From Terriglobia bacterium (GTDB lineage: Bacteria > Acidobacteriota > Terriglobia > Acidiferrales > UBA7541): a DNA stretch of 35,606 bases. The translations under genes and the position numbers were made by a program. Shown here piece by piece: positions 4,574 through 32,098 of the stretch. The stretch lies in contig JAIQGC010000126.1 of assembly GCA_020072805.1 (NCBI GenBank), positions 1 to 35,606 of the forward strand. The letters run 5' to 3'. The notes under the pieces are model-generated. The model had not been told where the DNA came from. It saw nothing but the letters and a program-made list of their open reading frames with translations, and searched no databases. Each line of letters starts with the position of its first letter. The stretch's first letter is position 1.

Positions 4574-6103
4574 TTATTCTTCTTCTGTTTCGACAAAAGT
4601 TGTATCGACTACATCAACAATGTTATCAATATTGCCGGCATTGTTAATACCAACATCGTTAACACCTATTCTCTTTTCTTTCTGTACATCATCATATACA
4701 ACTTCTTTAATGTTTCCAAGTTCTATTAATATGGATTCAAATAATTCGTAATTACCTCTGAATATTTTTGACGCTTTTGCTCTAACATCATCTGTTTTTA
4801 GACGCCTCGGATGAAAATCTTTAACGGTTTCCAAAATATATGACGACATTCTTTGATATCTGTCCAAACTTCTTCTATCGTGAATTTCGTTTTTTCTACT
4901 CTCTTTTTTTAATTCTTCTTCAAGAACTCTATCCTGCCTAGTTTTTAAATCAGTTTCTCCTTTATTATTCAGGTCCTCTTGTTGTTTTAACCTGGTGTCT
5001 ATAGTTCTCTTATTATCCCAGTTATGAACCTCTTCGGCAGTTTTAAGTTCGTTCAAAACTTTATCTCTTCTTTGTGGAGTATCAAATTGATTTAATAACC
5101 TTGCATCACTAACATTAATTTCTCCTTCTTCCAACTTCTCCTTTATGTCACTAGGCGACACTTTATATGTATTTAACGTATCTGTAAATTTTTCATCAGA
5201 AATTTTCGGAGTTTTATAATCTATTTTCATTCCTACTATTGGTTTAGATATATTTTCTTTATTTATATCTCCCTCCGATTTTATTGGTTCCTTGCTTGGG
5301 TCTTTGTTTGATTCTTTGTTCGTTACAAAACCACCAACATCACCAGTTAATACTATTCCAATAGTTTTTTCGCCTATAATTCCTGCTGTTTTTTCTTTTT
5401 TTGTATTGTCTACTATGTCTAACACCTTTTTTACTACAACCTCCTCTGTACCTATATCCAATTCACTTTTAATTTCTTCAGATATCTTGCCCATATCTTC
5501 TGAAGTCAATTTATCTTCTTGTTTTTTCTTTAATAAATCTTTTCTCAACTCAGGATGATCTGATAAATCCTTTGTGTTATCAATATCGTGTGTAGTAGCA
5601 AATTGTATAATAGGACTTGGATCATCATCCTTGAGCTTTCCGGCAGATATTATCATTCCCAAAAGAATACTATCTATTCCTATCTCATCTGCTAAATCCT
5701 GTATATATTCAAACTCCCCACTCTGTTTTCCTATTTTCCATGTTTCATAAATGTAGGCATCTGTCGCATTAGATTCTGGATCTTTTCTTTGGTAATTTTC
5801 ATTCAGACACATGAGTCTACCTCTCATGTCTGACATATTTACAAAAATCTTTGCTAATATATCATCCTCCTTTGTGGCTACGAGCCTTCTTGCTCCAGCA
5901 ATCAGATCATACTTTCCTTTTACTTTACTTTCTCTGACATCAATTTCATTTATCATCCCTCCATTACTAATTGATGCAGACAAACCTTTTATATCACTAT
6001 CTTTTTCATCTTCCAACTGTCTCATAATAAAGTCAGGTATCAAAATATCTTTTTTCGCTATTTTCTTTACTTCCTTTAATTCATATTTTTTCTTTTTTGT
6101 CAT
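4574..6103 (-). CDS. ParB-like partition/nuclease-domain protein (long)
   Basis: 509 residues. The N-terminal ParB/Srx-type domain shows GLSASISNGGMINEIDVRES (40-59), the nucleotide-binding loop AGARRLVATK (69-78, equivalent to GERRxxA) and LNENYQRKD (100-108, equivalent to ENxxR). ParB-family proteins of this type bind CTP and clamp onto DNA at parS to segregate replicons. After about residue 220 the protein becomes low-complexity, then charged and coiled (380-415). An SD (GAGGAGG) lies upstream. A second, shorter ParB is at 23082-24215. No ParA is visible, so this could also be a ParB-domain regulator. Confidence 0.8.
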   Translation of the reverse strand: MTKKKKYELKEVKKIAKKDILIPDFIMRQLEDEKDSDIKGLSASISNGGMINEIDVRESKVKGKYDLIAGARRLVATKEDDILAKIFVNMSDMRGRLMCLNENYQRKDPESNATDAYIYETWKIGKQSGEFEYIQDLADEIGIDSILLGMIISAGKLKDDDPSPIIQFATTHDIDNTKDLSDHPELRKDLLKKKQEDKLTSEDMGKISEEIKSELDIGTEEVVVKKVLDIVDNTKKEKTAGIIGEKTIGIVLTGDVGGFVTNKESNKDPSKEPIKSEGDINKENISKPIVGMKIDYKTPKISDEKFTDTLNTYKVSPSDIKEKLEEGEINVSDARLLNQFDTPQRRDKVLNELKTAEEVHNWDNKRTIDTRLKQQEDLNNKGETDLKTRQDRVLEEELKKESRKNEIHDRRSLDRYQRMSSYILETVKDFHPRRLKTDDVRAKASKIFRGNYELFESILIELGNIKEVVYDDVQKEKRIGVNDVGINNAGNIDNIVDVVDTTFVETEEE

Positions 6104-8509: not shown

Positions 8510-9403
8510 TCATTCAGATTGTTTATTAATGATACCGCCTAAATCTTGGCTTACCATTTGCAGGTCTCTCTTTTCTAATTCTTTATATTCTTTATATTTA
8601 TCCATATCTAGATTATCGGTCACGGAATTTATTATTCTCTTTTCTAAAATTTCAACAGGTAAAGCATCTAACTCTGCCTGTAATACATATCCAGCCAATT
8701 TATAATTATCCAGATTTGTGTCTTCCTCCTTTTCTATATTGGTAGGAAGATTATATTCAAATATATCATCATATGTCAATGCAATTCTCTCTATATCAAC
8801 ATCGACATTTAATTTTCTAAATGTTGATCTTATGCTTTTATCTATTTGAATTCCATTAGGATCATGATCACCAAAATACAGGATTTTACATTTCCTTCCT
8901 TCTGCAATATATTTCTTAAATATTAATGACCTTTCATAAATTATACTCAACGAAGAATATCCTCTCACTGTCATTAACAATATTCCATGATCAAAAATTT
9001 GATCATAGAATATATCGTATAATGCACTTTTTTCCATCCATACTTCAAAATAATTTGGTTGGTTTAACCAAATATTTCTCCTGTATAGAGACGGTAATAT
9101 GGAATAGAAATCTCCAACAGAATCCCACATATTTAATTGTGTTGGGAATCTTGATCTATCTACTATCTTATCCCAAGGTAATATGCCTTCTAATCTTCCT
9201 TGGGAACACAATCTACCAATTCTTTCATAACCATTAATATCTAATGAGACATAGTTCTTAGTCGCACATTGATAAAATATCTGTCTCACACTTAATCTTT
9301 TATGTTTTGACAATATGTCTTTAATCTTTTTAAACATATCCCAAGTTTCGGTTCTATGTCTCCTCGTCATTACATCTTCTGTCGATTGAATTGGAATTGA
9401 CAT
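8510..9403 (-). CDS. TopoVI-A/Spo11-like protein with Toprim domain
   Basis: 297 residues. The N-terminal part has a winged-helix-like segment with LSVRQIFYQCATKNYV (37-52), whose Arg40-Tyr44 resembles the catalytic Tyr region of TopoVI A/Spo11 (R-x-x-Y-Y type). A Toprim domain follows: Glu124 in VWMEKSAL, then GDHDPNG (178-184) with the DxD pair Asp179/Asp181. ELDALP at 244-249 is a hallmark of a family of TopoVI-A-like proteins in phages and plasmids. Toprim domains bind Mg and support DNA breakage or primase chemistry. No TopoVI-B partner is visible. It lies directly downstream of hairpin array 1, whose last unit ends about 55 bases before its start. Confidence 0.75.
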   Translation of the reverse strand: MSIPIQSTEDVMTRRHRTETWDMFKKIKDILSKHKRLSVRQIFYQCATKNYVSLDINGYERIGRLCSQGRLEGILPWDKIVDRSRFPTQLNMWDSVGDFYSILPSLYRRNIWLNQPNYFEVWMEKSALYDIFYDQIFDHGILLMTVRGYSSLSIIYERSLIFKKYIAEGRKCKILYFGDHDPNGIQIDKSIRSTFRKLNVDVDIERIALTYDDIFEYNLPTNIEKEEDTNLDNYKLAGYVLQAELDALPVEILEKRIINSVTDNLDMDKYKEYKELEKRDLQMVSQDLGGIINKQSE

Positions 9404-9456: not shown

Positions 9457-10225
9457 TCTTCTCATTTTATCGAAGTACCATTTTTCCATCTTTGCTATTT
9501 GCAATAAACAGGAAGGATATTCGTTACATATTCTTGTTTCAATATGATCAAACACAAACACGCTTTTAAATATGTACAAATATTCTATAATTCTCTCAAT
9601 TTCATCGAGCAGTATAGTTAATTGTGTGCACTTTGCAGGTTCTGTTAGAAAACAAACATTGTATCCTCATTTTCATAGGATTTTTCCTATTTTCATATAT
9701 ACACCAGGCCTTCCGAAGATGGAACATTATATTGTATCCTCATTTCATCATGGCAAATACAAATGCTTTTAAATATATTCTATAATTCTCTCATTTTCAT
9801 AGGATTTTTTGGGCAATGCAAGCTGCAGAGCTTAGATTGTTGTCATATCCTCATTTTTTCATAGGATTTTTCTTTTTTCATAGATTGTCATACCCTCATT
9901 TTATAGGACAACTCGAACTTGCATAACATCCAATTTTAAGTCCAAAACTTTATGTATATTCGTTTCCTTATTTTCATAGGATTTTTCGATGTCATCACTA
10001 ACAAAAAGACAAGATTGTACCCTCATTTTCTTGAGCTGAAAAACCTATTCAACAGGCGTTAAACTCTCAAATAATGAATTATATCCTCATTTTATTGGAT
10101 AATTTAAATGTCAGAAAACATCGAGAAAACAAACATCATACCCTCATTTTCTAGGGCAAGTGAAATTTATTAGAAAAACTTTAGGCGGCAAATCATTTTT
10201 CATCGGAACCGTTTCATCGGAATTC
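9457..10225 (-). repeat. Hairpin array 1 (about 12 units, covarying stems)
   Basis: Units centre near 9465, 9600, 9672, 9745, 9798, 9857, 9902, 9975, 10030, 10092, 10149 and 10200, with gaps of about 45-75 (one of 134). The plus-strand core is CCTCATTTTCATAGG. Paired arms include ATCC/GGAT (9663-9681), ATCC/GGAT (9847-9867), TATCC/GGATA (10082-10101) and CCCT/AGGG (10141-10156). On the minus strand the loop reads NAU-GA-AAAU-GA between CC and GG. A 3' flank of the type ACAAT is also conserved. No gene fits the 780 bases between 9404 and 10241. One unit with its flank is duplicated (9550-9606 and 9753-9800), so the array seems to grow by duplication. Confidence 0.85.
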
Positions 10226-10241
10226 AAATTCATATATTATC

Positions 10242-10463
10242 TCATACAGTGAAAAAGCTTTTTGCCGTCATATCATTATCTCCATATAGATCGTCGTGGT
10301 ATTTATTCATTATATCCAAACTTTCTTGTACACGCTTTCTAATAAATTCCTTAGTAAAGAATCCTGGATTTTCAAACCATGCATCTATATCTACCAATCT
10401 ACCATATAAATACTCTATAGTATGTTCAGGAATATTCACTGTTCTTTCTACTTTATTTTTCAT
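10242..10463 (-). CDS. Hypothetical small protein upstream of array 1
   Basis: 73 residues, beginning MKNKVERTVNIPEHTIEYLY. The start resembles an RHH strand plus helix (ERTVNIPEHTIEYL), followed by a helical region rich in Asp and Tyr. A good SD (AAGGAG) and a TATATATA tract lie upstream. The first hairpin of array 1 begins about 17 bases after the stop, so the array is probably in the same transcript. Confidence 0.6.
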   Translation of the reverse strand: MKNKVERTVNIPEHTIEYLYGRLVDIDAWFENPGFFTKEFIRKRVQESLDIMNKYHDDLYGDNDMTAKSFFTV

Positions 10464-10493
10464 TATTATTCTCCTTATATATATTTCATATTC

Positions 10494-10650
10494 TCACAAT
10501 GTTATCCTCACCATTTGGATAAATTTTCCAATACTATGATTCCAACAAAAGGGACATAAGGGTTTAATAATCACCCCAGCCCCCTCATTGATATAGAAAA
10601 AATTTACCGCACCGTGGACAAATCCAACGTTCTCCAACTATTGTAATCAT
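10494..10650 (-). pseudogene. Frameshifted double-CxxC zinc-ribbon gene
   Basis: From an ATG with AGGTGA upstream the frame reads MITIVGERWICPRCGKFF, then stops after LYQ at 10585. The shifted frame continues from the same point as YINEGAGVIIKPLCPFCWNH, ending at 10494. Joined, they make a natural zinc ribbon with two CxxC knuckles. The break falls near a six-base T run (on the minus strand, about 10597-10602). It may be a decayed gene, an assembly error in the homopolymer, or programmed slippage. Confidence 0.5.
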
Positions 10651-10683
10651 ATTCACCTATTTCTTCTTATATACATATGTATA

Positions 10684-11130
10684 TTAATCTGTCTCTCCAA
10701 CCAATGTTAGTTTAACACCGCCTACACTTGATGCAATAAGATTATATATTGCAGCCTCTATCATACCAAATATAAATCCCATTACAAAGGACAATATAAC
10801 AACTATTAATAAAATTAATACAAATCCTCCTCCCAATATAGACTTCAACTCAGGAGGAATTCCTGGCATCATTACAATAATTCCAATTAAAGGCAATATA
10901 AATATACATTCTACAATACCCAACAAAGCCGACATAAAACCCATAATTGTTCCAAATCGAAAAACGTGTATTTTTGTTATCGTTTTTTCCGTTCCATTAT
11001 TTAATTCTTCGATTTTAGCTCTATTTAACTTAATCTCATCTGTAAGACGTTTTAAATCGTCTTTAGTGTATTCCAAATCTTTCTTAAGATAAGAAACCTC
11101 TTCCTTTAGAAACAATATTTCTTCTACCAT
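10684..11130 (-). CDS. Membrane protein with coiled-coil N-terminus (DUF3566-like)
   Basis: 148 residues. Residues 1-50 are a charged coiled coil. Two to three hydrophobic helices follow (about 58-90 and 98-125). The ending FGMIEAAIYNLIASSVGGVKLTL resembles the archaeal/bacterial DUF3566-type pattern (YN-(L/F)-x-A-x-x-x-GG-(I/V)-x-L); I give that as a likely relation only. The ATG overlaps the stop of the preceding gene, and an SD (AAAGGAG) lies inside that gene's end. Function unknown. Confidence 0.7.
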   Translation of the reverse strand: MVEEILFLKEEVSYLKKDLEYTKDDLKRLTDEIKLNRAKIEELNNGTEKTITKIHVFRFGTIMGFMSALLGIVECIFILPLIGIIVMMPGIPPELKSILGGGFVLILLIVVILSFVMGFIFGMIEAAIYNLIASSVGGVKLTLVGETD

Positions 11131-11327
11131 TTTATTTTTCTCCTTTCTTCCACTTTATATGTGCTTCTTGTATCATATTCTGCTGTAAGCTTGACGAAAC
11201 CTACACCAAACCTGGTATATAGTCTCCCTTTTATTATCTCTCCAGAGACTTTTGTCAATAAATTTGCAAAATATTTACTGTCCTTAACTTTACTATTTTT
11301 GTTTTTCTTATCTCCAAATATACTCAT
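11124..11327 (-). CDS. Hypothetical basic protein
   Basis: 67 residues with a lysine-rich first 20 (FGDKKNKNSKVKDSKYF). The rest could form one small beta-rich domain (GRLYTRFGVGFVKLTAEYDT). It overlaps the gene before it by four bases (ATGA) and the gene after it by seven, so the three are one translational unit. Not recognised. Confidence 0.6.
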   Translation of the reverse strand: MSIFGDKKNKNSKVKDSKYFANLLTKVSGEIIKGRLYTRFGVGFVKLTAEYDTRSTYKVEERRKIKW

Positions 11328-11590
11328 ATTCTACTTCTCCTTCTCAACGACTCCCAAAGTTCTATGTTCTCTTCCATTAATTTCTTGTTCATATCAAAAA
11401 ATTGTTTTTCTATTTCTATCCACCATGTTATATCTCTATCCTCTTCTACTAACCTGTTTATCAACTCCCAATTTGGAGATCTGTCATTATTTGCAAAACC
11501 TATCCCAAACAAAATCCCATTTATAACAGATTCTCTTTCATTCTTTCCAACCAGTATATTTATTATTTTCTCAGCATCTTCATTATTCAT
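11324..11590 (-). CDS. Hypothetical helical protein
   Basis: 88 residues, acidic and helical (MNNEDAEKIINILVGKNERE at the start, tryptophan-rich DITWWIEIEKQF near residue 55). It has an SD (AAGGAG) and couples by ATGA to the next gene. No family is recognised. Confidence 0.6.
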   Translation of the reverse strand: MNNEDAEKIINILVGKNERESVINGILFGIGFANNDRSPNWELINRLVEEDRDITWWIEIEKQFFDMNKKLMEENIELWESLRRRSRI

Positions 11591-11636
11591 ATTTTACATC
11601 TCCTTCTTCTTTTCAACCATTTTTCTCCAACACAAT

Positions 11637-11945
11637 TTATAATATCCATCCTTTCTCTTCAAAGGCCTTTTTTGGATCTCTTTTCGCTTTACGCTCTTCT
11701 TCATACAATTTGAAAAATTTTCCTTCTTCCCATCTTTTGTGTAACTCAGCTGACCACCTTTTTATTATATCTTTATCTGCATCTTTTTCTCCCTTCTCTA
11801 TAAGAACCATCATATCTCTAGCGACATTAGCACACAGTTTATTATAATAACATTGACCACACTCTTCAATACTATGATCAAGCATTTTGTCTTGTCCAGT
11901 CATATTTTTAAGGAATTCAATTTCAGTTATTGTATCTAATACCAT
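11637..11945 (-). CDS. Hypothetical protein with a Cys cluster
   Basis: 102 residues. Residues 24-38 read HSIEECGQCYYNKLC, giving a C-x2-C-x5-C cluster with His24, a possible small metal site. The C-terminal half is strongly charged (KRWEEGKFFKLYEEERKAKR). An SD (AAGGAG) lies ten bases before the ATG, and the gene follows the DKDK-tailed gene by 13 bases. Function unknown. Confidence 0.62.
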   Translation of the reverse strand: MVLDTITEIEFLKNMTGQDKMLDHSIEECGQCYYNKLCANVARDMMVLIEKGEKDADKDIIKRWSAELHKRWEEGKFFKLYEEERKAKRDPKKAFEEKGWIL

Positions 11946-11958
11946 AATTATTTCTCCT

Positions 11959-12189
11959 TCAATTTTTATCTTTATCTTTATCTTTATCTTTATCTTTATC
12001 TTTATCTTTGAATATCGACCTAAATCTATTTAACAAAATTGCATCTGCAACTCCGAACTGTAATATAGCATTTGCCTTATCTTCTGGTATATTTGTCTTT
12101 TCTGAAATCCTCTTTGCGACCTCATCTATCTTGTCATCAAGTATTCTAATTTCAGACGTTTTTACCTTAGTTTGTAATTCGTTTGTCAT
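11959..12189 (-). CDS. Small RHH-like protein with an (Asp-Lys)n tail
   Basis: 76 residues. The first 60 are helical (LDDKIDEVAKRISEKTNIPE, then DKANAILQFGVADAIL). The last 15 are (DK)7 plus Asn, encoded by seven perfect copies of one hexamer, an in-frame tandem repeat. The ATG overlaps the upstream 33-residue gene's stop (ATGA). The tail is probably a repeat expansion, not a functional domain. Confidence 0.65.
   Translation of the reverse strand: MTNELQTKVKTSEIRILDDKIDEVAKRISEKTNIPEDKANAILQFGVADAILLNRFRSIFKDKDKDKDKDKDKDKN
11965..12006. repeat. Perfect hexamer repeat, 7 copies
   Basis: TTTATC is repeated seven times without a mismatch; in frame it encodes Asp-Lys dipeptides. Perfect copies indicate a recent or maintained expansion. 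Confidence 0.95.
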
Positions 12190-12287
12190 TTTAATTCTCC
12201 ATAAATTAGAAGGAAAAGACCATATAAGACAATATTCTTGAAAGTTTTCTTGGTCTTCTCCCTTAAAGCCTCAGCACTTTGCATCAT
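12186..12287 (-). CDS. 33-residue membrane-spanning microprotein
   Basis: The frame reads MMQSAEALREKTKKTFKNIV, then LYGLFLLIYGELK. A basic amphipathic start is followed by one hydrophobic span (residues 19-29). It starts 12 bases after the upstream stop and ends in an ATGA overlap with the next gene, the same coupling seen between its neighbours. The SD is weak, so the evidence is mainly the overlap and the natural residue pattern. Confidence 0.45.
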   Translation of the reverse strand: MMQSAEALREKTKKTFKNIVLYGLFLLIYGELK

Positions 12288-12298
12288 TGGCCATGATC

Positions 12299-12622
12299 TT
12301 ATTCTTTATCAAAAATCATTATTATTCTTACAGGAATATCAGGAATCTTATATTCGAAACTGGTCAGCCAACGAAAAACGGCCGATGAAACCTCTTTCGA
12401 TTTATATTTTTCTAATTTTTTCAAAGCATCTTTTGTTTGATCTTTCCTGAAACAGAAAAGGTCGATACAATCTGCAACTTTATGAACCACTATATCAACA
12501 TTTTTCAGAGTTATTGTATTACTATTGTCACTATCATTGTCGTCAATGACTATGTCATATCTTATTCCTGCATAATCCTTCTTTTTATCCAAATCCTTTA
12601 ATATTATCAAATTATTTGTCAT
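12299..12622 (-). CDS. Hypothetical protein
   Basis: 107 residues with mixed strands and helices. Residues 20-50 look like two beta strands (GIRYDIVIDDND, TITLKNVDIVVHKVADCIDL), and the end is RIIMIFDKE. It overlaps the preceding gene by one base and has an SD (AAAGGAG). I recognise no family. Confidence 0.62.
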   Translation of the reverse strand: MTNNLIILKDLDKKKDYAGIRYDIVIDDNDSDNSNTITLKNVDIVVHKVADCIDLFCFRKDQTKDALKKLEKYKSKEVSSAVFRWLTSFEYKIPDIPVRIIMIFDKE

Positions 12623-12852
12623 TATCTCTCCTTTTCATTCAACAATTCTTCAATTACTTTGTCTATAGCACCCATTCTCTTTCTTTTTCTTTCTAAGATA
12701 TCTTTATCTATATCAAAATCAACCTTCTTCCATTCTTTTATACATTTATCGTTCAAAATCAACACACACTCACAATCCCATCCATATAGATTGCGATTTC
12801 TTATCATTTCTAATATTTCAGTTTTTGATCCACAAATATAGCCATTACTCAT
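12622..12852 (-). CDS. Hypothetical protein directly downstream of array 2
   Basis: 76 residues from the ATG at 12850-12852, chosen because AAGGAGAT lies at the right distance; an ATG six codons earlier overlaps that SD. The sequence begins MSNGYICGSKTEILEMIRNR and ends in a charged helix. Three cysteines (ICG, DCEC) may matter. It starts about 50 bases after the last hairpin of array 2, so array and gene are probably one transcript. Confidence 0.6.
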   Translation of the reverse strand: MSNGYICGSKTEILEMIRNRNLYGWDCECVLILNDKCIKEWKKVDFDIDKDILERKRKRMGAIDKVIEELLNEKER

Positions 12853-12900
12853 CTTTATCTCCTTCTTCATATTCTATTTGTGAAATAACAACATATACCA

Positions 12901-13736
12901 TTTTCTCAATTTCATCGAAAAATATAACAGAACCGCTTCTAGTTCTTTATTATTCAGACTAATTTTCTCATTTTCATAGATATTATCTACCAATAACAAG
13001 ATATCTTAGTAAAATTATTTTCTCATTTTCATTAAAACCTTTTACCTTTTCAAGCTATATCACTAGCGATAGTAATTCGCAAAAGTGATTAAAAAATTTG
13101 TTTCCTCAAATTAATTTCATTAGAATCATTCTTTTTCACATAACCTGATGGAGCTAAAATTTATATCGAATTATTACCTCAGTTTCATAGTGCCATTGCT
13201 ACCGCCAATTACGAACAAAAGATATGAATATCAGTTGCAAAACATATATAAATATATAGTTTCCTCAAATTTTCATAAGAAACCTGATCCAAACAATCCT
13301 GATCATCTAGCTGTATATGTCAAATCATATTCTCAATTTCATAGATTGATAAAACACAACAAGTTATTCAATAGTATAGAAAGCAATTTACCGACTACTG
13401 AAATACGATCGTCTCCTCATTTTTCATTGGACTTACTAACTAAATAATCAACACTATGCAAAATTATCTCCTCATTTCCAGATTTCAAAATGGAATTATT
13501 ACTCAAGCACCACAAGCAAATGCTGTATCAGTATTGTTATTTCCTCATTTTTCATTGGAAATATTGAAATGTTGATAAATCTCCAGAAGATATATCATTT
13601 CCTTATTTTCATCGGAATAATTTAAATAGTCAACTACAATTTATTATGCATTCAATATTATCAGAATAATGTCTGCAAAAATTTATTAGCCAATTACAAC
13701 TTTTTATATATTGTTATCTCATTTCTTCAAAATAAT
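12901..13736 (-). repeat. Hairpin array 2 (about 12 units, covarying stems)
   Basis: Units centre near 12911, 12974, 13029, 13115, 13185, 13271, 13339, 13423, 13480, 13551, 13608 and 13725. The best-paired arms are TTTTC/GAAAA (12901-12921), GTTTC/GAAAC plus a wobble (13259-13283), ATTTCC/GGAAAT (13539-13562) and TTCC/GGAA (13599-13617). The loop core TCATTTTCAT is kept while the arms change, unlike array 1. It begins immediately after the stop of the Cas6-like gene. The unit near 13115 has a longer apical loop. No gene is supported between 12871 and 13740. Confidence 0.85.
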
Positions 13737-13740
13737 CAAA

Positions 13741-14796
13741 TCACAATACTCTAAATTGACCTTTTCCAAACGAAGTTCTATGACCAAATCCTCTCAACAT
13801 CTCTGCAGATGCTAACGTATCAAACCATTTTTTGTATCTATCATTTCCATAGATATCGTCCAAGTTTTCTCCATTATTTAGCAGACAATCAAGTTTTGTA
13901 CCTCTGGATATTACATTTAATTTTGTATTCAATGGTACTCCTTCATTTGTAAGAGGATCTATTTTAAGATCTAAGAATTGTACAACACTTCTTGGATCAT
14001 TTCTTCCTTTCATTATTGTCATTTTTGGCTGTTCATACTTTGTTACAGACGTAACTTCATCTGGATCTTCTGCCCATTTACCTATTCCAAAATATTTAGC
14101 TGCATTTTTGCAGTCTCTAAGAATATCTTCTGGCATTATTACAGTTTCAGAAACTATATCTGAAAGAAAATGTAATGTCATTTTTCCATTATTTTCTCTC
14201 ACCTTTCCTGCCAAATAATCGCTTCTTCTATCTATATCCCTTTTATTTATTTCTTTTTTCTCAACATTCTTTAATGTTATCTTCCCAAAACCCTTGTCGC
14301 CTCTCTTTCCAATATTAAGATCATTGTCTTTCGCATATTCCAACGCAGAAAGAAAGTCAGATAACCTTTGTACTTCATCTCCTTCTTTATCGCCTGGAAT
14401 TTTCTTGAGGTTTAATATAATCTCAAATTTGAAAGTCTTCTTTTCCGTGATACCGTCATTATAGAATGACTGAACTCTATGTTCTCCTAAATGAACTCCA
14501 ATGACACTATCTTTAACAGTTGGCTCTGCTATCAACTGCCCACATTTATTACACACATAGGCTTTACTTCCAATAGGAATAATAGATCCTCCACATTTAT
14601 CTCCATGTTTCACGAAACAGTCACGAAAGTATAATATCGGATGACCATTCCAATATGATTTTGCTATATCCAATCCCATTTGAAGAAATATATATCCAAA
14701 TGCACCTCTAATCACCTGACCCATAGGATATGGTTCATTATTCAAAAGTACGGAAGAGCTGTTTTCCAGCTCTCCGGTTACCTTTAATGCAATCAT
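13741..14796 (-). CDS. Cas6-like RAMP protein (candidate array-processing RNase)
   Basis: 351 residues, the size of long Cas6 proteins. Residues 23-39 read YPMGQVIRGAFGYIFLQ, like the RGAxG segment of that family, followed by a Cys cluster (Cys60, Cys68, Cys82, Cys85), a possible zinc knuckle. The first RAMP glycine loop is IGKRGDKGFGKITL (162-175). The second, at the end, is LRGFGHRTSFGKGQFRVL (334-351), the classical C-terminal Cas6 loop. Cas6 proteins cut precursor CRISPR RNA at hairpin repeats. No catalytic His can be assigned by eye. It overlaps the Cas7-like gene by ATGA, and hairpin array 2 follows its stop. No Cas1, Cas2 or Cas10 is nearby. A non-cleaving RAMP subunit is the alternative. 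Confidence 0.75.
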   Translation of the reverse strand: MIALKVTGELENSSSVLLNNEPYPMGQVIRGAFGYIFLQMGLDIAKSYWNGHPILYFRDCFVKHGDKCGGSIIPIGSKAYVCNKCGQLIAEPTVKDSVIGVHLGEHRVQSFYNDGITEKKTFKFEIILNLKKIPGDKEGDEVQRLSDFLSALEYAKDNDLNIGKRGDKGFGKITLKNVEKKEINKRDIDRRSDYLAGKVRENNGKMTLHFLSDIVSETVIMPEDILRDCKNAAKYFGIGKWAEDPDEVTSVTKYEQPKMTIMKGRNDPRSVVQFLDLKIDPLTNEGVPLNTKLNVISRGTKLDCLLNNGENLDDIYGNDRYKKWFDTLASAEMLRGFGHRTSFGKGQFRVL

Positions 14797-15536
14797 TTTG
14801 TCACAGCCTGCGTAGATTTCTTATCTTTATCCTTATCTTTTTCTTTATCCTTTTCTTTATCCGGATTTAATAATTTTCGAGCCTCCTCTTTTCCTATGTC
14901 TTTATATGTTGACCACTTTATTTTTTCAAGGGTTACATCTATCTTTGTTCTACCTCTTCCTCGCCTTGTCCATCCTCCTAGACCATGAGTTTCTATTGCT
15001 TTTAGGGCACCGGTAATAACTTCGATATCTCTTTCTTTTGGATTACGAATGACAATATTACCTACGAGCTCCGCTCCCTCTTGGATTTCTTCCAATTCTA
15101 TAGTTGGACCCTGGTCTTTAGTGACCACACCAGTATCTCTATCAATCCTCGGGTGCGTAGATATATCCACAACTTCATTAAACGGTCTAACAGTTTTCAA
15201 CTCATCAACACATACTCTTCCCTTCTTGCCCAAATATCCATACATATCACAAGTTATGCAATCTGGGCGTCCGCATCCTTTTGCGTCCCGAGCTACATCG
15301 CAAGCACCTGAACTCTTTAACATTTTCTCAGAAAATGCTCTCAATATTCCGCTCAAGTTAATTGTAGCAAAACCGTCTCCACTTTTTCTTGTCGGAATTC
15401 TATTTTTCGTCTTTCTTTCTTTTACTTCTTTTACCTTGTTCTCTCCAGTATAAATTGGAGACACTGCGGTAACCTTGAGGTGCATAATTATTATGTCCTC
15501 ATTTGGTGTTACCGCACCTTGTATTATATTACTCAT
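14793..15536 (-). CDS. Cas7/Csm3-like RAMP protein
   Basis: 247 residues. VTAVSPIYTGENK (22-34) fits the first RAMP strand and turn. GCGRPDCITCDMYG (87-100) matches the C-x2-C-x-x-F/YG segment of Csm3/Cmr4 proteins. HPRIDRDTGVV (128-138) and ELEEIQEGAELVGNIVI (147-163) match the RxRIDRxTG and ExxxxGxxFxG blocks. The glycine loop is GLGGWTRRGRGR (185-196). These proteins form the guide-RNA backbone of type III complexes, and Csm3 cuts target RNA. The usual catalytic Asp of Csm3 is not obvious. The tail (225-240) is a Lys/Asp/Glu repeat. It starts just after hairpin array 3, with an SD (AAAGGAG), and couples to the Cas6-like gene. Confidence 0.82.
   Translation of the reverse strand: MSNIIQGAVTPNEDIIIMHLKVTAVSPIYTGENKVKEVKERKTKNRIPTRKSGDGFATINLSGILRAFSEKMLKSSGACDVARDAKGCGRPDCITCDMYGYLGKKGRVCVDELKTVRPFNEVVDISTHPRIDRDTGVVTKDQGPTIELEEIQEGAELVGNIVIRNPKERDIEVITGALKAIETHGLGGWTRRGRGRTKIDVTLEKIKWSTYKDIGKEEARKLLNPDKEKDKEKDKDKDKKSTQAVTK
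14820..14862. repeat. Degenerate in-frame repeat in the Cas7-like tail
   Basis: TTTATC/TTTTTC-type hexamers encode the DKEKDKEKDKDKDKK tail. This is the same repeat type as at 11965-12006, less perfect, and suggests ongoing expansion in this element's genes. Confidence 0.8.
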
Positions 15537-15613
15537 GTTATTTATTCTCCTTTATGTTATAACTCTCAATTATTATTGATCGTTGTGTGTATTAAATATT
15601 TCATCCTTATGTA

Positions 15614-16036
15614 CTATTGTTGCCTGATTTTTATTTAGAATATACTAGGTAATGATGCCTAATGATAAAAGCGGTAAATAATTTGGATTTGTTACCTCAT
15701 TTCGTCGGTACGTTATTCCTCAATTAACTCTAAATGATTTTATAACAATATTACCTTATTTTCATCGGAATAATTTTGTTTACCTATTTCATTAAGTCAC
15801 ATATAGCTACCTGTCCTAATATATCTAATATATAATCGTTGCCTATTTTCATAGGCATTTATATTCACCTAGATTGGCATGCCGTTCATTATGTAAATAT
15901 ATTGTTACCTCTTTTTCATTGGAATTTACACTTAACACTCTTACACAAAATTTTTTGTTACCTCTTTTTATCGGTAATATATAGACTTTACCAAGTCCTA
16001 TTGGAGATGTTATTGCCTTATTTCATAAGCATCAAT
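15614..16036 (-). repeat. Hairpin array 3 (about 8 units, covarying stems)
   Basis: Units centre near 15628 (degenerate), 15702, 15762, 15790, 15849, 15914, 15967 and 16027. Perfect arms include TACC/GGTA (15693-15710), TGCCTA/TAGGCA (15840-15857) and TTACC/GGTAA (15958-15977). On the minus strand the 3' flank is often GGNAACAAT, and the loop again reads GAUGAAAAUGA or a variant. It begins about 40 bases after the stop of the beta-CASP gene and ends before the promoter or RBS region of the Cas7-like gene. No gene fits 15537-16072. Confidence 0.83.
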
Positions 16037-16072: not shown

Positions 16073-18202
16073 TTATCGATCTCTCAGTTTCTCATTTATT
16101 TTATCAATACTTTCCTTCAAAAATCTTATGTTCAACTTCGCACCTCTTCTTAAACATGTTGCTATCATATCATTTGTTTTCTCCCTGTCAATTTTTACAT
16201 CTATTTTATCAAGATCTACTTGACGGGCTATAAGAACATCATGACTTAATTTGTTATCAATAATGTACAAATATTCACTTTTGCCTTTTTCTATTCCATC
16301 TTTCAGTTGTTTAATCAACCCCTTTGAAATGATCTTATCATCAAAAGCCTTAATCAAGACATCAACATATTTTTTAGACTCAATTATATTATCAGGTCCT
16401 TCAAATTCTTCTCCAATATCACTTCTTTCTTCTACTGGTAATAACTTATCTTTTTCTAGACACAATGCATCTAACAAATTCTTTTGCATCTCATCTTGGG
16501 ATACAAGTTTATAACTATTCCCATTATCAACAATAAACCCCCAGTATGGGGCAAAAATTTTTCCTGCCCTATTTTCAAACTTTACTATTTTACTTTCTCT
16601 CAATACATCAATATTCGTAATATCCTTAGTAATTACATTTTCATTTGTAGCAGACTCACTAAGTTCATAACTAACATTGAACTGACTAACTATTGTCTCA
16701 ACCCTAAACTTTCTTTCAATCTCACTTTTTAACGACTCAGACGCATCAGTTTCCCCATGTACTACGAAAATCTTCTTTGGTAATATGCGAAATTTATTGA
16801 TATATTCCAATAAATCATTTTTATCTGCATGAGCACTAAGTCCTTCAATCCTCCTGATAGAAGCATTTACAAAGACTTTCTTTGATACATCTTCTATTTC
16901 ACCTTCTGTATTTTTAATCTTGTAATTTACATGAACTTCTTTTTCTCCATCTATCAATTGCCTTCCCAATGTACCTTCTCCCTGATATGATGTGAACAGG
17001 ACAATATTCCTATTATCTTCAAGTATACCAGGAAGATATCTCATAATCCTTCCCCCCTCAAGCATTCCACTTGACGCGATGATTATACATGGGAATTTAG
17101 CACCAGCTATTTCCATACTCTTCTTGTTAGATATAACCTTCTCGAATCCAGCTGGTTTAAATATCTCTTTAAAGTCAACTTCACCCTTCCCCTGCTGAAG
17201 AGTCTTACTCAACCCATGAGCAAGATAATGTATACTACCCTGATATTCTCCATACTGTTCCAACTTTTTAGCTATTTTAGGAAGATCGTATCTATTTCGT
17301 GTATAAATTTCCAATACTTCCAAACCAAGAGGCGTATCAAAATATACTTTCTCCTTTACACCTAAATCTTTGATTAAATGCAACAACTCTTCAGCTCTGT
17401 CAACAGCCAATACAGGTATAAGCAACCTACCTCCACTTTCTTTTACATATTCAATTGCATTTTGCAAAGAAAGAGCATCGCTCTTTTCGATTTCTCTATT
17501 ACCATAAGTACTTTCAATTATCAAATAATCAACAATCTCATTCCCCTTCCCCACTGGAGAAGGTATCTCATGTAATGAAGATCTCCCTCCTCCTAGGTCT
17601 CCTGTGTAAAGTAAACTAATCGGCTTTGTTATCTTAATTGATACCCCACCAATTATATGTTCACTATTTACAAATTCAACCTTCAACTTACCATCATCAC
17701 TTTCCCAATCACCAAATTCCATTGGAATCGGAGTAAATAATTGTTTTGTTCTTTCAACATCCTTTTCACTAAACAGTAATCCTAGATCTTTTTCTGAATC
17801 ATCAACACTACTATCTTTCCCGTCATTTGTCTTTTCAATTCCATTCCCATTTTCTTTTTCTTGCTGTTTTCCTTTTTGGATTTTTAACATATCATCCAAT
17901 ATGATAAATGCTAAATCTCTCGTTACAGGCGTACTGATAATCTTACCTGTAAAACCCCGCTTTACTAACATGGGCAGACGCCCACAATGATCAAAATGGC
18001 TATGACTTAAAAAAATATATCGTATATCTTGAGGATTAATAGAATGGGGAAGATAACCGTTCAATTCTTCACTATCAAGACCTTGAAATGCTCCTGCATC
18101 CAAGAGAATTTTTAAAGATTCTTCTCCTTCGTCAAAACTCAACATATGTAAACTGCCCGTCACTTCGCCACACGCACCATAACTAGTAAGTTTAATTACC
18201 AT
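16073..18202 (-). CDS. Beta-CASP metallo-beta-lactamase RNase, long form
   Basis: 709 residues. The zinc motif HSHFDH (67-72) sits in LSHSHFDHCGRLP. Next come GDLGGGRSSLHEIP, ESTYGNR, GGRLLIPVLAVDRAEE, the beta-CASP segment IIIASSGMLEGGRIMRYLPG, then RIEGLSAHADKNDLLEYI and FVVHGE. This is the architecture of archaeal CPSF/RNase J-type enzymes that cut or trim RNA. It lacks N-terminal KH domains. About residues 490-709 form an extension absent from the paralogue at 21105-22592, and about 35 residues near 108-143 are low-complexity. A strong SD (AAGGAGG) is present. Hairpin array 3 follows the stop, so a role in array RNA processing is plausible inference. Confidence 0.9.
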   Translation of the reverse strand: MVIKLTSYGACGEVTGSLHMLSFDEGEESLKILLDAGAFQGLDSEELNGYLPHSINPQDIRYIFLSHSHFDHCGRLPMLVKRGFTGKIISTPVTRDLAFIILDDMLKIQKGKQQEKENGNGIEKTNDGKDSSVDDSEKDLGLLFSEKDVERTKQLFTPIPMEFGDWESDDGKLKVEFVNSEHIIGGVSIKITKPISLLYTGDLGGGRSSLHEIPSPVGKGNEIVDYLIIESTYGNREIEKSDALSLQNAIEYVKESGGRLLIPVLAVDRAEELLHLIKDLGVKEKVYFDTPLGLEVLEIYTRNRYDLPKIAKKLEQYGEYQGSIHYLAHGLSKTLQQGKGEVDFKEIFKPAGFEKVISNKKSMEIAGAKFPCIIIASSGMLEGGRIMRYLPGILEDNRNIVLFTSYQGEGTLGRQLIDGEKEVHVNYKIKNTEGEIEDVSKKVFVNASIRRIEGLSAHADKNDLLEYINKFRILPKKIFVVHGETDASESLKSEIERKFRVETIVSQFNVSYELSESATNENVITKDITNIDVLRESKIVKFENRAGKIFAPYWGFIVDNGNSYKLVSQDEMQKNLLDALCLEKDKLLPVEERSDIGEEFEGPDNIIESKKYVDVLIKAFDDKIISKGLIKQLKDGIEKGKSEYLYIIDNKLSHDVLIARQVDLDKIDVKIDREKTNDMIATCLRRGAKLNIRFLKESIDKINEKLRDR

Positions 18203-19800: not shown

Positions 19801-21066
19801 TTACCTGAAATATGTCTTATACCATTCAGTCAACTTTGATCTAATATTAACATTCTTCATTTCTTCTAACAACTTTAATCTTCTTTTTTCTTCATTATCT
19901 TTCAAATTTTCAAATGTTAGGTTTAACCTTCTTTTTTCATCATCAATTTTCAACTGTTCAAGAAACACATATGCATCTTCTTCAACAATTGTATCCCCAA
20001 TTATACACGCAGAAAATATATTCTTTATCAATTCTTTGATATTAAAAAGACTTTCAGGATATTTTTCCATACAATCCTTTGCAATTTTTCTGATAATTTC
20101 GCAATTTCTATTACTCCCCAAATACTCTTCGTATCCTTTTTTTGAAGAGAATCCTTGTTTTTCCCAAAAAAAGTATCTGAATTTCAAATATTCATAATAA
20201 ATATCAACTCTAATATTATAAGTCTCCATCTCATTCCTTATATTGAGATATATGGTTTTATCTTCATATATATTAAAATCTTTTCCAAGTACTTTTCTCA
20301 TATTATCCATCCTTATATAAGTATTATCATGCAATTCCAATTCCTTCTTCATTGAAGGTAGAATTTCTTTAATTTTATCTCTATATGTCAATAGATCTTT
20401 TTCTTTTCTCAATTCTTCTTCTTCTTCTTCTTTTATCTTTCTAATTCTCTCTGTCTTTCTCAATTCTTCTTCTTCTTCTTCTTTTATCTTTCTAATTCTC
20501 TCTGTCTTTCTCAATTCTTCTTCTTCTTCTTTTATCTTTCTAATTCTCTCTGTCTTTCTCAATTCTTCTTCTTCTTTTTCTCGTTCTTCATTAGTAATAA
20601 TACTAACAAAGTTTTTTGTACGTACGACTGGACTCGGATTTACATTTATACTATTTGGTGTCTGTTCTACAGGTTTATACTTTTCTTTTTTTGTATTTAA
20701 TGCATTGATATCCGGCAGTTTTAACTTGGATTGTCCGACTACCTGGAGAATCTTTTTGGGTTCGGTTTTTACTCCTACAACTACCAGTTTATTCACAATA
20801 TCGGATTTTTTTCTGGATATGTAAAGATATTCTTTTTTATATAACTCCGTATAGATACCGTATCTAAATAACAACCGTTTTAGAACCATATAAAATACTA
20901 TTGAGGTTTTATCTAAGAGTTCTCTTTTTGATTTGGCAATCTCATTTTGAACATCTTTCAATCTAACAACTATGAATTTGTCTTTACTTTTATCAATCTG
21001 ATAAATAAGCCACGGAACAATAGGTCTCAAACCTTCTTCATAATCTTTTGTTGTTACCAATACCAT
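19801..21066 (-). CDS. Repeat-bearing protein with two wHTH-like segments
   Basis: 421 residues. Residues 32-90 (VVRLKDVQNEIAKSKRELLD, then VLKRLLFRYGI) and about 250-310 (YIRMDNMRKVLGKDFN, then LNIRNEMETYNIRVDIY) show the same K/R-x-x-D-x-x, helix, F/Y-x-x-(L/V)-K, GI pattern. This also begins the two nuclease-like proteins at 24629 and 25855, so it is probably a shared winged-helix-like domain. Between them three near-perfect copies of a 16-17 residue unit (EEEELRKTERIRKIKE) form a charged coiled coil. SD (AAAGGAG). It lies between the two beta-CASP genes. Function unknown. Confidence 0.68.
   Translation of the reverse strand: MVLVTTKDYEEGLRPIVPWLIYQIDKSKDKFIVVRLKDVQNEIAKSKRELLDKTSIVFYMVLKRLLFRYGIYTELYKKEYLYISRKKSDIVNKLVVVGVKTEPKKILQVVGQSKLKLPDINALNTKKEKYKPVEQTPNSINVNPSPVVRTKNFVSIITNEEREKEEEELRKTERIRKIKEEEEELRKTERIRKIKEEEEEELRKTERIRKIKEEEEEELRKEKDLLTYRDKIKEILPSMKKELELHDNTYIRMDNMRKVLGKDFNIYEDKTIYLNIRNEMETYNIRVDIYYEYLKFRYFFWEKQGFSSKKGYEEYLGSNRNCEIIRKIAKDCMEKYPESLFNIKELIKNIFSACIIGDTIVEEDAYVFLEQLKIDDEKRRLNLTFENLKDNEEKRRLKLLEEMKNVNIRSKLTEWYKTYFR
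20409..20575. repeat. In-frame 51/48-base tandem repeat
   Basis: Two 51-base copies and one 48-base copy (one TTC fewer) plus a partial copy. The copies are otherwise identical, and length changes keep the frame. They encode the EEEELRKTERIRKIKE units. Confidence 0.95.
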
Positions 21067-21104: not shown

Positions 21105-22592
21105 CTATCTCCTTCTAGGCGTGAAATCTTTATGTTCTATTACAGACATACCATCATCGAAATCATCCACAATTCCTTCGCCTTTATTTTTTGTACTTTT
21201 TGTACTCGTAACAACCCTTCGCCTTTCACTTTCATTTACATTTACATTAGGTAATTCATATTCTACATTATATTCTGGTATAATAGTTGAAATTCCGAAC
21301 AACCCCTCTATCTCTTTTTTTAAATTTTCAGAAGCATCTAACTCTCCATGTACTATGAAAACCATCTTTGGTAAATATGAAAACTTACTTATATATTCAA
21401 TAATATCATTTTTGTCGGCGTGACTACTTATTCCATCCATTTTCCTAACAGACGCTTCTACTTTAACTTCTCCATCTAATATTCTCCTGCCCAAAGTTCC
21501 TTTACCTAAATATGAAGTAAATAGAATTATATTATTAGGATATTCTAGAATACCTGGTAGATATTTCAATATTCTCCCTCCCTCCAGCATACCACTACTG
21601 GATAGAATAATACAATTCGGAACTAATTTCGTATTCTTGGATACTTCTATGAAATTTTTTGGTCTAAATGAATAATATACTTGATCTGCATTTAAATTTC
21701 TATTCTTAATCTGTACTCTATTAAACTTTTCAGTCAACTTTACAAAAGAATTGGCTGTATAAATAGAAAGCACATCCAATGCCATTGGACTGTCTAAGTA
21801 TACAGTTTCTTCAACATTTAATGATTTCAGCAACGCCAGTATTTCTTCTGCTCTATCTATTGCAAGAATAGGAATTAGCAATCTACCTCTATTTTCTTTA
21901 ATATCGTTAATAGCATTCACCAAAACCATACTATCGCTCTTCCCTATTAGTCTATTTCCATAAGTACTTTCTACAATTAAGTAATCTATACCCCCTTTTG
22001 GGGGAACTGGAATCTTATGCAAAGATGACCTGCTTCCACCTAAATCTCCTGTATATAATAATTTTATGGGTTTTTCAATATATATACTCGCACTTCCTGC
22101 AATATGTTCTGCATTGATGAAAGTTACTACAAACTTTTCATCACTGCTTGCCAATTTTCCATATTCTTTACGTATTGGTACAAATAGTCTTTTGGTCATT
22201 TCAATATTTTTTTCTGAAATTGGACCAATATCCTTGTCTCTCTCAAAGTCAGAATCACTATTCTGAATTTTTACCATATTATCCATCAAGATAAACGATA
22301 TGTCCCTTGTTGCAGAAGTACAAATTATCTTTCCATGAAAACCTCTACTCACAAGTAGAGGTAATCTTCCAATGTGATCCAGATGCGCATGCGAAATTAA
22401 AATATAATTTATATCCATTGGATTAAGTTCCGCCGGTAAACAACTATTCTTTTCTCCAGCATTAAGACCTTGGAAAGAGCCAGCATCTAACAAGATTTTC
22501 ATCGGATAACCCATTTCGTCACTCAAATCCAGAAGATGCATTGACCCTGTCACACACGAACAACCGCCAAAACTGGTAAGTTTGACCGTCAT
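21105..22592 (-). CDS. Beta-CASP metallo-beta-lactamase RNase, short form
   Basis: 495 residues, paralogue of the protein at 16073-18202. HAHLDH (68-73) binds the catalytic zincs. GDLGGSRSSLHKIPVP, ESTYGNR, GRLLIPILAIDRAEE, CIILSSSGMLEGGRILKYLP, KMDGISSHADKNDIIEYI and FIVHGE follow in order. Archaeal and bacterial enzymes of this build act as RNA endo- or exonucleases. It lacks the ~220-residue C-terminal extension of the long form and ends in a low-complexity tail. SD TGAGG is close to the ATG. Two paralogues so near each other suggest duplication and specialisation. Confidence 0.88.
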   Translation of the reverse strand: MTVKLTSFGGCSCVTGSMHLLDLSDEMGYPMKILLDAGSFQGLNAGEKNSCLPAELNPMDINYILISHAHLDHIGRLPLLVSRGFHGKIICTSATRDISFILMDNMVKIQNSDSDFERDKDIGPISEKNIEMTKRLFVPIRKEYGKLASSDEKFVVTFINAEHIAGSASIYIEKPIKLLYTGDLGGSRSSLHKIPVPPKGGIDYLIVESTYGNRLIGKSDSMVLVNAINDIKENRGRLLIPILAIDRAEEILALLKSLNVEETVYLDSPMALDVLSIYTANSFVKLTEKFNRVQIKNRNLNADQVYYSFRPKNFIEVSKNTKLVPNCIILSSSGMLEGGRILKYLPGILEYPNNIILFTSYLGKGTLGRRILDGEVKVEASVRKMDGISSHADKNDIIEYISKFSYLPKMVFIVHGELDASENLKKEIEGLFGISTIIPEYNVEYELPNVNVNESERRRVVTSTKSTKNKGEGIVDDFDDGMSVIEHKDFTPRRR

Positions 22593-23016: not shown

Positions 23017-23091
23017 TTATATTATTGTCTTATATTATTGTCTTATATTATTGTCTTATATTATTGTCTTATATCATTGTCTTATATCATT
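23017..23091. repeat. Thirteen-base tandem repeat, about 5.8 copies
   Basis: TTATATTATTGTC recurs at 23017, 23030, 23043 and 23056 without change, then twice with one substitution. It covers the stop codon of the ParB gene and the leader of the next gene, a spot typical of Borg-type repeats. Confidence 0.95.
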
Positions 23092-24215
23092 TGCGTTTCA
23101 CTCTGATCATCGATGATCCCTGCATCTGAGATCTCGGAAGGTTTCTCTTGCATTTCAGTATGAATACCTTCCTCTTCTTTTTCCTCTTTAGACGGTAATT
23201 CAGACTGAGGTTGTTCAATAAAACGTTTCTTATCGTCCTTTGTCTTTTCTTCTTTCTGTTTCAACAACCCTCTTTGTTCCAAGTACTCCCTTATTACACT
23301 TTTTATGAACTGTGTAGGTTCCTCGAACCTGCGTTCTCCTTCCTTTTTTATAATCTTTGCAACTCTTGCCTTGAAGATTATACTTATAGCAAGATCTTGT
23401 TCTTGTTCTTCGAGTTTTTCCTCAATTTCTTTTACGGTGATTTTTGGAGCCTCTTTTATTGCTTCTATTATCGCATCCTTTCTTTTTTTGTCCTGATAAG
23501 GAATAGTAGATATTTTCTCAGCTATCTTTACCATCTCTTCTGGCTCTACTTCTGAATAACGAGCAAGTTTTCGAGCATAGCCAGACCCTATTTTATCTCC
23601 TGTAACCATTACTTGTATCTTTTCTGGAACTTTACAATAGTTTGTCCAATACTGTAAAGTGGTTATACTTCTATTCAAGACTTCTGACAGAAGTACCCAA
23701 TCGTTATCATATGCTTCAAGCAGTTCTAACACTGCCATAGCCCTGTCTTTCGGATCAATATCAACTCTGTTGATATTTTCGCTTAACGAAAGTAATCTAT
23801 CATCCTCAGGTAAAGTATCACTTAAAATAAAGGCTCTAATAGTTTTCCATCCGATCATTCTAGCAGCAGCAGTTCTTCTAGAACCAGCGACAACATCGAA
23901 CAATTCCTTATTGCCACTAACTTTTGCCCTTCTTACTTCAATGGGTTGTCTTAGTCCATGTCTCCTCATATCTTGAGCTAATATTTCAACATCCTTCAAT
24001 GGGTCAGTTAGTCTTACATTTAATTTAGATACTCTAATATCTTCTAATGGTATGTCTCTGAGTTCCCTATCGTCCTTTCTCTGTTCTGTTACTTCTGTCT
24101 TATCAAACAGAGTTATTACTGTATCTTTCTTTTTTTTGTTATCTGGTGTACTTATCTCTATCTCTTCATCCACAGTTTTTTCTTCATCTTTAGTTTCACT
24201 ATTGTCGTTTGTCAT
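23082..24215 (-). CDS. ParB-like partition protein (short)
   Basis: 377 residues. The ParB core has IPLEDIRVSKLNVRLTD (55-71), VVAGSRRTAAARMIGW (108-123, the GERRxxA-type loop) and SLSENINRVDI (143-153, ENxxR). A helix-turn-helix region follows (VLLSEVLNRSITTLQYWTNY), then a segment FKARVAKIIKKEGERRFEEP that may be an RHH-like C-terminal domain, and a low-complexity acidic tail. It probably binds a centromere-like site and CTP. SD GTGAGG. The match to ParB is clearer here than in the 509-residue relative. No ParA is seen nearby. Confidence 0.88.
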   Translation of the reverse strand: MTNDNSETKDEEKTVDEEIEISTPDNKKKKDTVITLFDKTEVTEQRKDDRELRDIPLEDIRVSKLNVRLTDPLKDVEILAQDMRRHGLRQPIEVRRAKVSGNKELFDVVAGSRRTAAARMIGWKTIRAFILSDTLPEDDRLLSLSENINRVDIDPKDRAMAVLELLEAYDNDWVLLSEVLNRSITTLQYWTNYCKVPEKIQVMVTGDKIGSGYARKLARYSEVEPEEMVKIAEKISTIPYQDKKRKDAIIEAIKEAPKITVKEIEEKLEEQEQDLAISIIFKARVAKIIKKEGERRFEEPTQFIKSVIREYLEQRGLLKQKEEKTKDDKKRFIEQPQSELPSKEEKEEEGIHTEMQEKPSEISDAGIIDDQSETQMI

Positions 24216-24453: not shown

Positions 24454-24636
24454 TCATTCTACAATTACAAATTTTCCATTCTTTCTTATTACTTTTTTCC
24501 ATTTTATCCCATATTCTTTTTCAATTCTTTCTACGGCTTTTTCTGCATTATCGATCATTGTAGAAATATCGTAATTAGCTTCCTTCGCAAGTTTTTCACG
24601 TACTTTATGTACCTCGCCCACAATAGGGTCATACAT
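24454..24636 (-). CDS. Small conserved MYDPIVxEV-type protein
   Basis: 60 residues: MYDPIVGEVHKVREKLAKEA at the start. I recall many short bacterial proteins that begin MxDPIVxEVRxIRExLAxExNYD and lie next to toxin-like genes; this copy has all these positions, including ANYDIS. No function is established to my knowledge. It overlaps the upstream nuclease-like gene's end by eight bases and precedes the structured ParB leader. Confidence 0.7.
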   Translation of the reverse strand: MYDPIVGEVHKVREKLAKEANYDISTMIDNAEKAVERIEKEYGIKWKKVIRKNGKFVIVE

Positions 24637-32037: not shown

Positions 32038-32098
32038 TTAATCCTCATTTATTTAATATTTAACTAACTTCTAATTTTTCCATTTTTAATCACCCTTT

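Follow-up and report, generated by a model that had tools for sequence, protein, structure and literature searches.

Hairpin arrays lie around and within a predicted cas14-cas7-cas5 operon

Contig JAIQGC010000126.1 of assembly GCA_020072805.1 (35,606 bases, all of which were analyzed and are referred to here as the window) is assigned to a Terriglobia bacterium, and an initial annotation, made from the letters of the contig, described about thirty hairpins in three of its intergenic stretches. These hairpins were found at the positions listed in Table 1, around and within a predicted operon that encodes Cas14, Cas7, and Cas5 on the minus strand, in the order cas14, array 3, cas7, cas5, array 2, several small open reading frames (ORFs), and array 1. 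As detailed below, the hairpin arrays are very probably clustered regularly interspaced short palindromic repeat (CRISPR) arrays and part of a type VII system (Cas14-Cas7-Cas5) carried on a Borg-like element, with low guanine-plus-cytosine (GC) content, of methane-consuming, Methanoperedens-type archaea.

Table 1. Hairpin arrays and associated genes in the window
Feature	Position	Strand	Description
Array 1	9457-10223	minus	11 scored units plus partial copies; beyond several small ORFs downstream of array 2
Array 2	12901-13735	minus	12 scored units; directly 3′ of cas5; position matches L023 11888-11999 and L025 11872-11980
Array 3	15617-16036	minus	7 scored units between cas14 and cas7; position matches L025 units 9680-9851
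Full example unit	13537-13564	minus	ATTTCC, loop, GGAAAT; outside the 12-unit model set
cas14	16073-18202	minus	Predicted 709-aa metallo-β-lactamase/beta-CASP nuclease plus C-terminal region; intact ORF
cas7	14793-15536	minus	Predicted 247-aa RAMP protein, lysine/aspartate-rich tail; intact ORF
cas5	13741-14796	minus	Predicted 351-aa RAMP protein; 4-base overlap with cas7; intact ORF
Second beta-CASP gene	21105-22592	minus	Predicted 495-aa Cas14 paralogue that lacks the C-terminal adaptor region; lies upstream of cas14, at a distance of 2.9 kb

Thirty-four units were picked by eye, of which four (9683, 9869, 10192, and 15780) that were partial or adjacent copies were dropped before any count, leaving 30 to be scored. 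Read on the minus strand, a unit consists of a variable 5′ arm, a loop close to (T/A/G)ATGAAAATGA, a complementary 3′ arm that starts with GG or GA, and the tail AYRAT, with a repeat core of about 24 nt by reading. The loop was kept across the 30 scored units while the arms changed, as the initial annotation had described, and the successive tail positions were conserved in 29 (A), 29 (Y), 27 (R), 27 (A), and 21 (T) of the 30 units. The distance between loop starts was 45 to 88 bases in 25 of 27 intervals, close to the 45 to 85 bases noted initially, and was 116 and 136 bases in the remaining two.

A covariance model, built on the 12 units whose loop is 11 nt long, was run on all 35,606 bases and both strands with no filters (E-values are rough). 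Matches at E ≤2 fell inside the arrays in 26 of 30 cases; the top 23 all lay within arrays in minus-strand orientation, 11 of these were absent from the model, and the first match elsewhere had an E-value of 0.8. A sequence-only model ranked 21 array units ahead of its first match elsewhere. A candidate for an extra array at 31976-32045 was dismissed once the sequence was read. At 9662-9700, a unit is followed at once by a partial second copy, and the two combine into an extended palindrome (minus strand, ATAGGAAAAATCCTAT).

To judge by sequence similarity, the three predicted operon proteins are each best matched by solved type VII subunits. Cas14, in which the motif HSHFDH can be read, matched type VII Cas14 in the PDB at 3.1e-54 over two stretches, the second of which reached residue 642, and Cas7 matched type VII Cas7 at 2e-32. 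The top PDB match of Cas5 was type VII Cas5, with an E-value that was weak for the single sequence (0.02) and was 7.6e-7 for a 3-sequence profile with two homologues. AlphaFold models of Cas5 and Cas14 (predicted local distance difference test scores of 43 and 54, respectively) were too poor to use or to search with. The 495-aa paralogue is 50% identical to residues 1 to 522 of the 709-aa Cas14, in an alignment that ends at paralogue residue 455. No Pfam match to Cas1, Cas2, or Cas6 was detected in the 40 of 40 minus-strand ORFs of at least 80 aa on this contig fragment (30 plus-strand ORFs were outside the scan), and these Pfam scans gave no match to Cas10.

The arms of the hairpins covary

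Covariation was assessed by shuffle tests in which arms were swapped over all units or within arrays. The 30 units made 91 bp of contiguous Watson-Crick stem, compared to 71.0 bp (standard deviation, 4.8) when arms were swapped within arrays and 62.0 bp (standard deviation, 5.0) when they were shuffled over all units, and none of 4,000 shuffles of either kind reached the real value. Allowing G-U pairs made the contrast smaller (105 versus 95.7 within arrays; 101/4000). When the excess of complementarity over column composition was calculated for the 49 column pairs (7 by 7) of the 30 units, the top three values belonged to true partners, at stem positions 2, 3, and 4 (0.109, 0.148, and 0.203), and no signal was found past position 4; position 1 was nearly fixed (C-G in 27 of 30 units and T-G in 3). 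A fixed-register test yielded 97 of 180 pairs versus 85.9 within arrays (18/5000), with 35 of 60 versus 27.9 for positions 3 and 4 only (40/5000) and a marginal result for positions 3 to 6 jointly (48 of 120 versus 42.6; 986/20000).

Because the loop borders had been set by hand, a further test was run in which a script chose the registers alike for real and swapped halves. Within arrays, the real stem score was reached in 19 of 20,000 swaps and the real RNAfold energy in 37 of 20,000, with array 1 supplying most of the signal. Compensation is thus genuine, though modest in extent, in a stem of about 4 bp. The initial claim that the arms change together was confirmed, with covariation over about 4 bp and not over 5 to 6 bp. 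The arms covary and, therefore, selection acts on the folded strand, as had been proposed.

Related loci in archaeal genomes

Cas7, the sole protein searched for in genome contigs, had relatives at three loci: L023 (Methanosarcinales METP1), L024 (Methanoperedens BLZ2), and L025 (Methanoperedens E14 bin 71; genome G486). These represent 3 of the 34 genomes of the L024 family, which was taken as Methanoperedenaceae. L023 and L024 are near-identical (638/640 for Cas14), and there are therefore two independent lineages among the sister loci. The Cas14 and Cas5 proteins of the window are 46% (with the C-terminal part covered) and 44% identical, respectively, to those of L023.

The three loci have cas14, cas7, and cas5 in the same order as the window. 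Two units follow cas5 in both L023 and L024, and L025 has units between cas14 and cas7, units past cas5, and a further array. Their repeats contain ATGATATGAGG-NN-GCAAC (for example, GTTGGCGAGGAACGTGCCAATGATATGAGGCAGCAAC) and align with the window units on the loop, GG, and the GCAAC tail; the two sets were linked by visual comparison of the loop, GG, the tail, and array position, and not by a score. The presence of arms in related loci had been put forward as a check, and the sister repeats have them, in the stems TGCC/GGCA and TTCC/GGAG and in the imperfect TTCC/GGAT and TTCC/GGGT. The sister loci thus resemble the window in gene order, in two array positions, and in a loop-GG-NN-RCAAY pattern. 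They differ from it in their longer (37-nt) and less diverged repeats, in a Cas7 that is 57 to 58% identical, and, in L025, in the extra array, which lies upstream of cas14 on the opposite strand.

Spacers of sister arrays match the starts of genes in their own genomes

A search of the 34 whole genomes covered the four full spacers of the L025 upstream array only. Two of the four, spacers 3 and 4, matched their own genome outside the array, antisense and within the first 50 coding bases, and the matched stretches of the array coincided with whole spacers. Spacer 4 (37 nt) matched G486 at 35 of 37 positions, at coding positions 14 to 50 of an AglJ-like glycosyltransferase gene (L100; predicted start, 6648), and also matched homologous genes, two in genome G493 and one in G484. 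Spacer 3 matched at 30 of 34 positions, at coding positions 15 to 48 (L101; predicted start, 5078). All five match sites of the two spacers are antisense to a long ORF. The spacer 4 target resembles PpgS and AglJ glycosyltransferases (below the cutoff) and lies among glycosyltransferase-like ORFs, and the spacer 3 target, which had no family match, is near an archaeosortase-like gene; both are probably surface genes. Over the 34 genomes, spacer 1 gave weak partial matches only (E-values of 0.02 and worse) and spacer 2 gave none.

In G493, a remnant array (L099) that adjoins the start of a cas14-like gene has a spacer that matched G493 at 33/34 and 32/34, in the antisense direction, with a match that spans the start codon (positions −12 to 22) of a gene of the same glycosyltransferase family (L104; predicted start, 2763). 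This spacer is not an unbiased draw, because its match turned up on contigs that had been selected through spacer 4, outside the whole-genome search. Type VII spacers from two genomes have matches in the conserved 5′ end of the AglJ-like family (L100, L102, L103, and L104). For each matching spacer, none of 1,000 dinucleotide shuffles reached the real score in 614 kb, a result that speaks to the quality of the matches and not to their frequency, because the 614 kb includes contigs chosen for matches. Six further L025 segments, four from L023/L024, and one from L099 had no convincing match in the 614 kb beyond their own or sister loci (best E-value, 0.005).

For the window, the whole stretch and each array were used as queries against the 34 genomes, with at most 8 to 19 candidates, part of the total, scored per genome. 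The best array match, of window positions 13690-13732 on contig C77 of genome G514 (84% over 43 bases; E-value, 1.3e-5), is AT-rich and was not accepted, without further test; the same stretch had weaker matches in other genomes too. Distant blastn searches with the window guides against phages and plasmids gave best E-values of 0.2 and 0.1, respectively, no protospacer was accepted in G484 to G486 or in the window's own bin, and nothing convincing as a protospacer was found in the window outside the arrays or in four low-GC contigs. The suggestion that the segments between hairpins could be guides is upheld by sister array segments that match genes; the window's own segments had no accepted target in the searches made.

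The contig resembles a Borg-like archaeal element

The window has a GC content of 31.5% versus about 60% for the bacterial bin, and of 12 other bin contigs that were sampled, 8 were at 51 to 65% and 4 at 29 to 37%. The bin is bacterial by the small-subunit (SSU) rRNA on contig C29, with an SSU model that also responds in archaeal controls; the rRNA stretch that was read carries the bacterial start motif. Among the low-GC bin contigs is C120, which has a gene for an archaeal-type replication factor C small subunit. A perfect 22-bp tandem repeat is present at 2444-2559 of L019, a low-GC bin contig with a replication factor C small subunit that is possibly from the same or a sister element; a link of L019 to the window's element was not shown by protein comparison (E-value, 0.11).

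Of the 18 ORFs of at least 200 aa in the window, 17 are on the minus strand, and the 18th overlaps one of them. Tandem direct repeats of at least 3 units, with copies that are not all perfect, lie in and between genes (11965-12009, 20405-20581, 23017-23091, and 24679-24757). The repeats at 11965-12009, 20405-20581, and 24679-24757 are in or beside genes, and amino-acid repeats result in two proteins. Low GC content, coding on one strand, and tandem repeats are features used to find Borgs (PMC9605863), for which a GC content of 30 to 35% is given and partition genes are reported as not detected. Because the window encodes two ParB-like proteins (4574-6103 and 23082-24215), the contig is named Borg-like and not a Borg. 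Borgs and plasmids are also the subject of PMC11208441, PMC9879509, and PMC9674854.

Other genes in the window include an ATP synthase subunit C gene on this element-like contig (2164-2409; Pfam E-value, 3.9e-17), a gene with a TopoVI-A/Spo11 Toprim match (8510-9403; 6e-4) and weak JetD matches, and two adjacent genes for paralogous proteins that are 52% identical and have no good family match (24629-25819 and 25855-26883). No relative of Cas7, Cas14, this pair of paralogues, or the TopoVI-A-like protein was found in viral contigs, and Cas7 had no match in plasmids; with Cas14 as the query, 10 phage records without annotation gave beta-CASP-like matches at 21 to 33% identity. Within the family to which the bin belongs, Cas7 was found in 1 of 89 genomes, namely, in the window itself, and three further weak matches were seen among 396 genomes of the phylum. 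The contig looks like a Borg-like element from an archaeal host, and was probably binned with a bacterium by error.

Comparison with known systems

In published type VII systems, Cas5-Cas7 binds a CRISPR RNA that carries a repeat tag at its 5′ end and another at its 3′ end, and Cas14 is recruited and cuts the target RNA (PMC10910872 and PMC11786720). Published accounts indicate that there is no adaptation module (PMC10910872) and that the repeats “often contain multiple substitutions” (PMC12669027), and PMC11786720 treats as open the matter of how spacers could be gained when Cas1 and Cas2 are lacking. The window system resembles published type VII systems (PMC10910872 and PMC12669027) in its three subunits, as judged by homology, its operon, the lack of detected adaptation genes, and its substituted repeats. 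It differs from them in a shorter repeat core (∼24 nt), compensated stems, three variably spaced arrays, an adaptor-less Cas14 paralogue, and a low-GC mobile-type contig. The type III-A CRISPR of Borgs, described in PMC9605863, is likewise RNA guided, without acquisition genes, and found on a low-GC Methanoperedens element, but the window has Cas14 and type VII Cas7 and Cas5 and lacks a Cas10 match.

The divergence of the units had initially been taken to point away from CRISPR, as not an ordinary array. This view missed that the arrays lie on both sides of, and within, the cas14-cas7-cas5 operon, and type VII and its substituted repeats are already known (PMC12669027). No literature joining Methanoperedens, type VII, and CRISPR was found in searches with thin coverage of subscription papers and without preprints or supplements, and among titles there was none fitting type VII self-targeting, covariation, or endogenous targets. 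Within these searches, the compensated repeats, the Borg-like setting, and the start-proximal self-matches are new.

How the arrays might function

The units, their covariation, the operon, the homology of its proteins, and the synteny with archaeal loci were shown here and support the assignment of the arrays to a type VII system. Transcription, processing, the handle, loading, and RNA cutting are inferred, as is the archaeal host of the contig. Transcripts would run along the operon direction on the minus strand, and cleavage at the hairpins would release guides that carry repeat tags on both ends, with the AYRAT tail of a unit forming the 5′ handle of the guide RNA that follows. The guides would be held by Cas5 together with a Cas7 filament, and pairing with a target RNA would recruit Cas14, which would cut the target. 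With no adaptation genes there would be no fresh repeat copies, and repeats would drift by point mutation, while selection would retain the loop, the tail, and a paired 4-bp stem as needs of the RNA. Drift with compensation is expected because no adaptation module makes fresh repeat copies. A processing and handle element would accord with a loop and a tail that are conserved and a stem that is free to vary yet paired.

Several observations weigh against this interpretation. Unit spacing is more variable than in a standard CRISPR array. Plain mutual information peaked off the diagonal (0.514 for 5′ column 4 by 3′ column 3, where complementarity falls below expectation) versus 0.310, 0.410, and 0.343 on the diagonal. 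The automatic-register test was clear for array 1 only (17/5000; array 2, 335/5000; array 3, 817/5000), and 10 of the 30 units make just 1 or 2 contiguous pairs, G-U included. The 12-unit alignment by itself was weak: 72.9% paired versus 67.0% was not significant (68/500), the covariation score was marginal (48/500), and there was no excess of double-change pairs (411/500) or further pair types (485/500). The window covariance model misses the chromosomal repeats, and its L025 matches fall outside the arrays. Cas14 matched NCBIfam NF045584 at 2e-104 with 350 bits, under the curated cutoff of 800, and the two chromosomal Cas14 proteins that were tested also fell below it. Finally, the window guides had no accepted protospacer in the 34 genomes, for which part of the candidates were scored, or in phages, plasmids, or the window itself.

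The guides might be directed mainly at transcripts of the host or of the element itself, as stable regulatory RNAs and not in immunity, which is a claim on use that is compatible with a type VII assignment. Three spacers (3 and 4 of L025 and that of G493) are antisense at gene starts of their own genomes, with the shuffle results given above, and no adaptation genes were detected. However, there are three such spacers only, one of them drawn with bias; L025 spacers 1 and 2 lacked a good match, as did the further sister segments; the window guides had no accepted targets; and the spacers of published type VII systems mostly have matches in transposon genes (PMC10910872). A regulatory role is possible, unproven, and in our view unlikely. 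Similarly, we consider it rather unlikely that the type VII arrays of Methanoperedens and its elements serve as inherited sets of guide-RNA genes, and not as immune memories, with selected mRNAs being silenced at the 5′ end. If this is true, the targets of the chromosomal loci would be surface glycosylation and surface protein-like genes, with no adaptation the stems would evolve by compensatory change and the guides would diverge along with their targets, like structured RNA genes, and a mobile element would carry about 30 guides managing its host or rival elements.

Strong repeat divergence, the 10 units with 1 or 2 contiguous pairs, the partial copies, and the lack of accepted protospacers are features that would be shared by relics of a once-active type VII system decaying without function. 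This is improbable, given that the arms covary within arrays, the tail and loop are kept, and cas14, cas7, and cas5 are intact ORFs. It is very improbable that the hairpins, despite their short stems and irregular spacing, are not CRISPR and instead represent terminators, repetitive extragenic palindromic (REP)-like elements, protein-binding sites, or cruciforms, since they occupy the same position in cas14-cas7-cas5 operons of other genomes, have a conserved tail outside the stem, match no Rfam family at the gathering score, and have sister inter-hairpin segments that are spacers with matches; the terminator and REP readings were rejected on the synteny and the conserved tail.

Implications

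The assignment of the hairpin arrays to a type VII CRISPR system places a member of this rare type on a Borg-like contig. Such arrays would probably escape repeat finders that depend on repeats being nearly identical. For testing, the sister loci offer concrete targets, namely, host genes whose first codons are matched in the antisense direction. Repeats that were inherited long enough for compensated stem swaps permit an evolutionary reading of what a guide RNA must keep.

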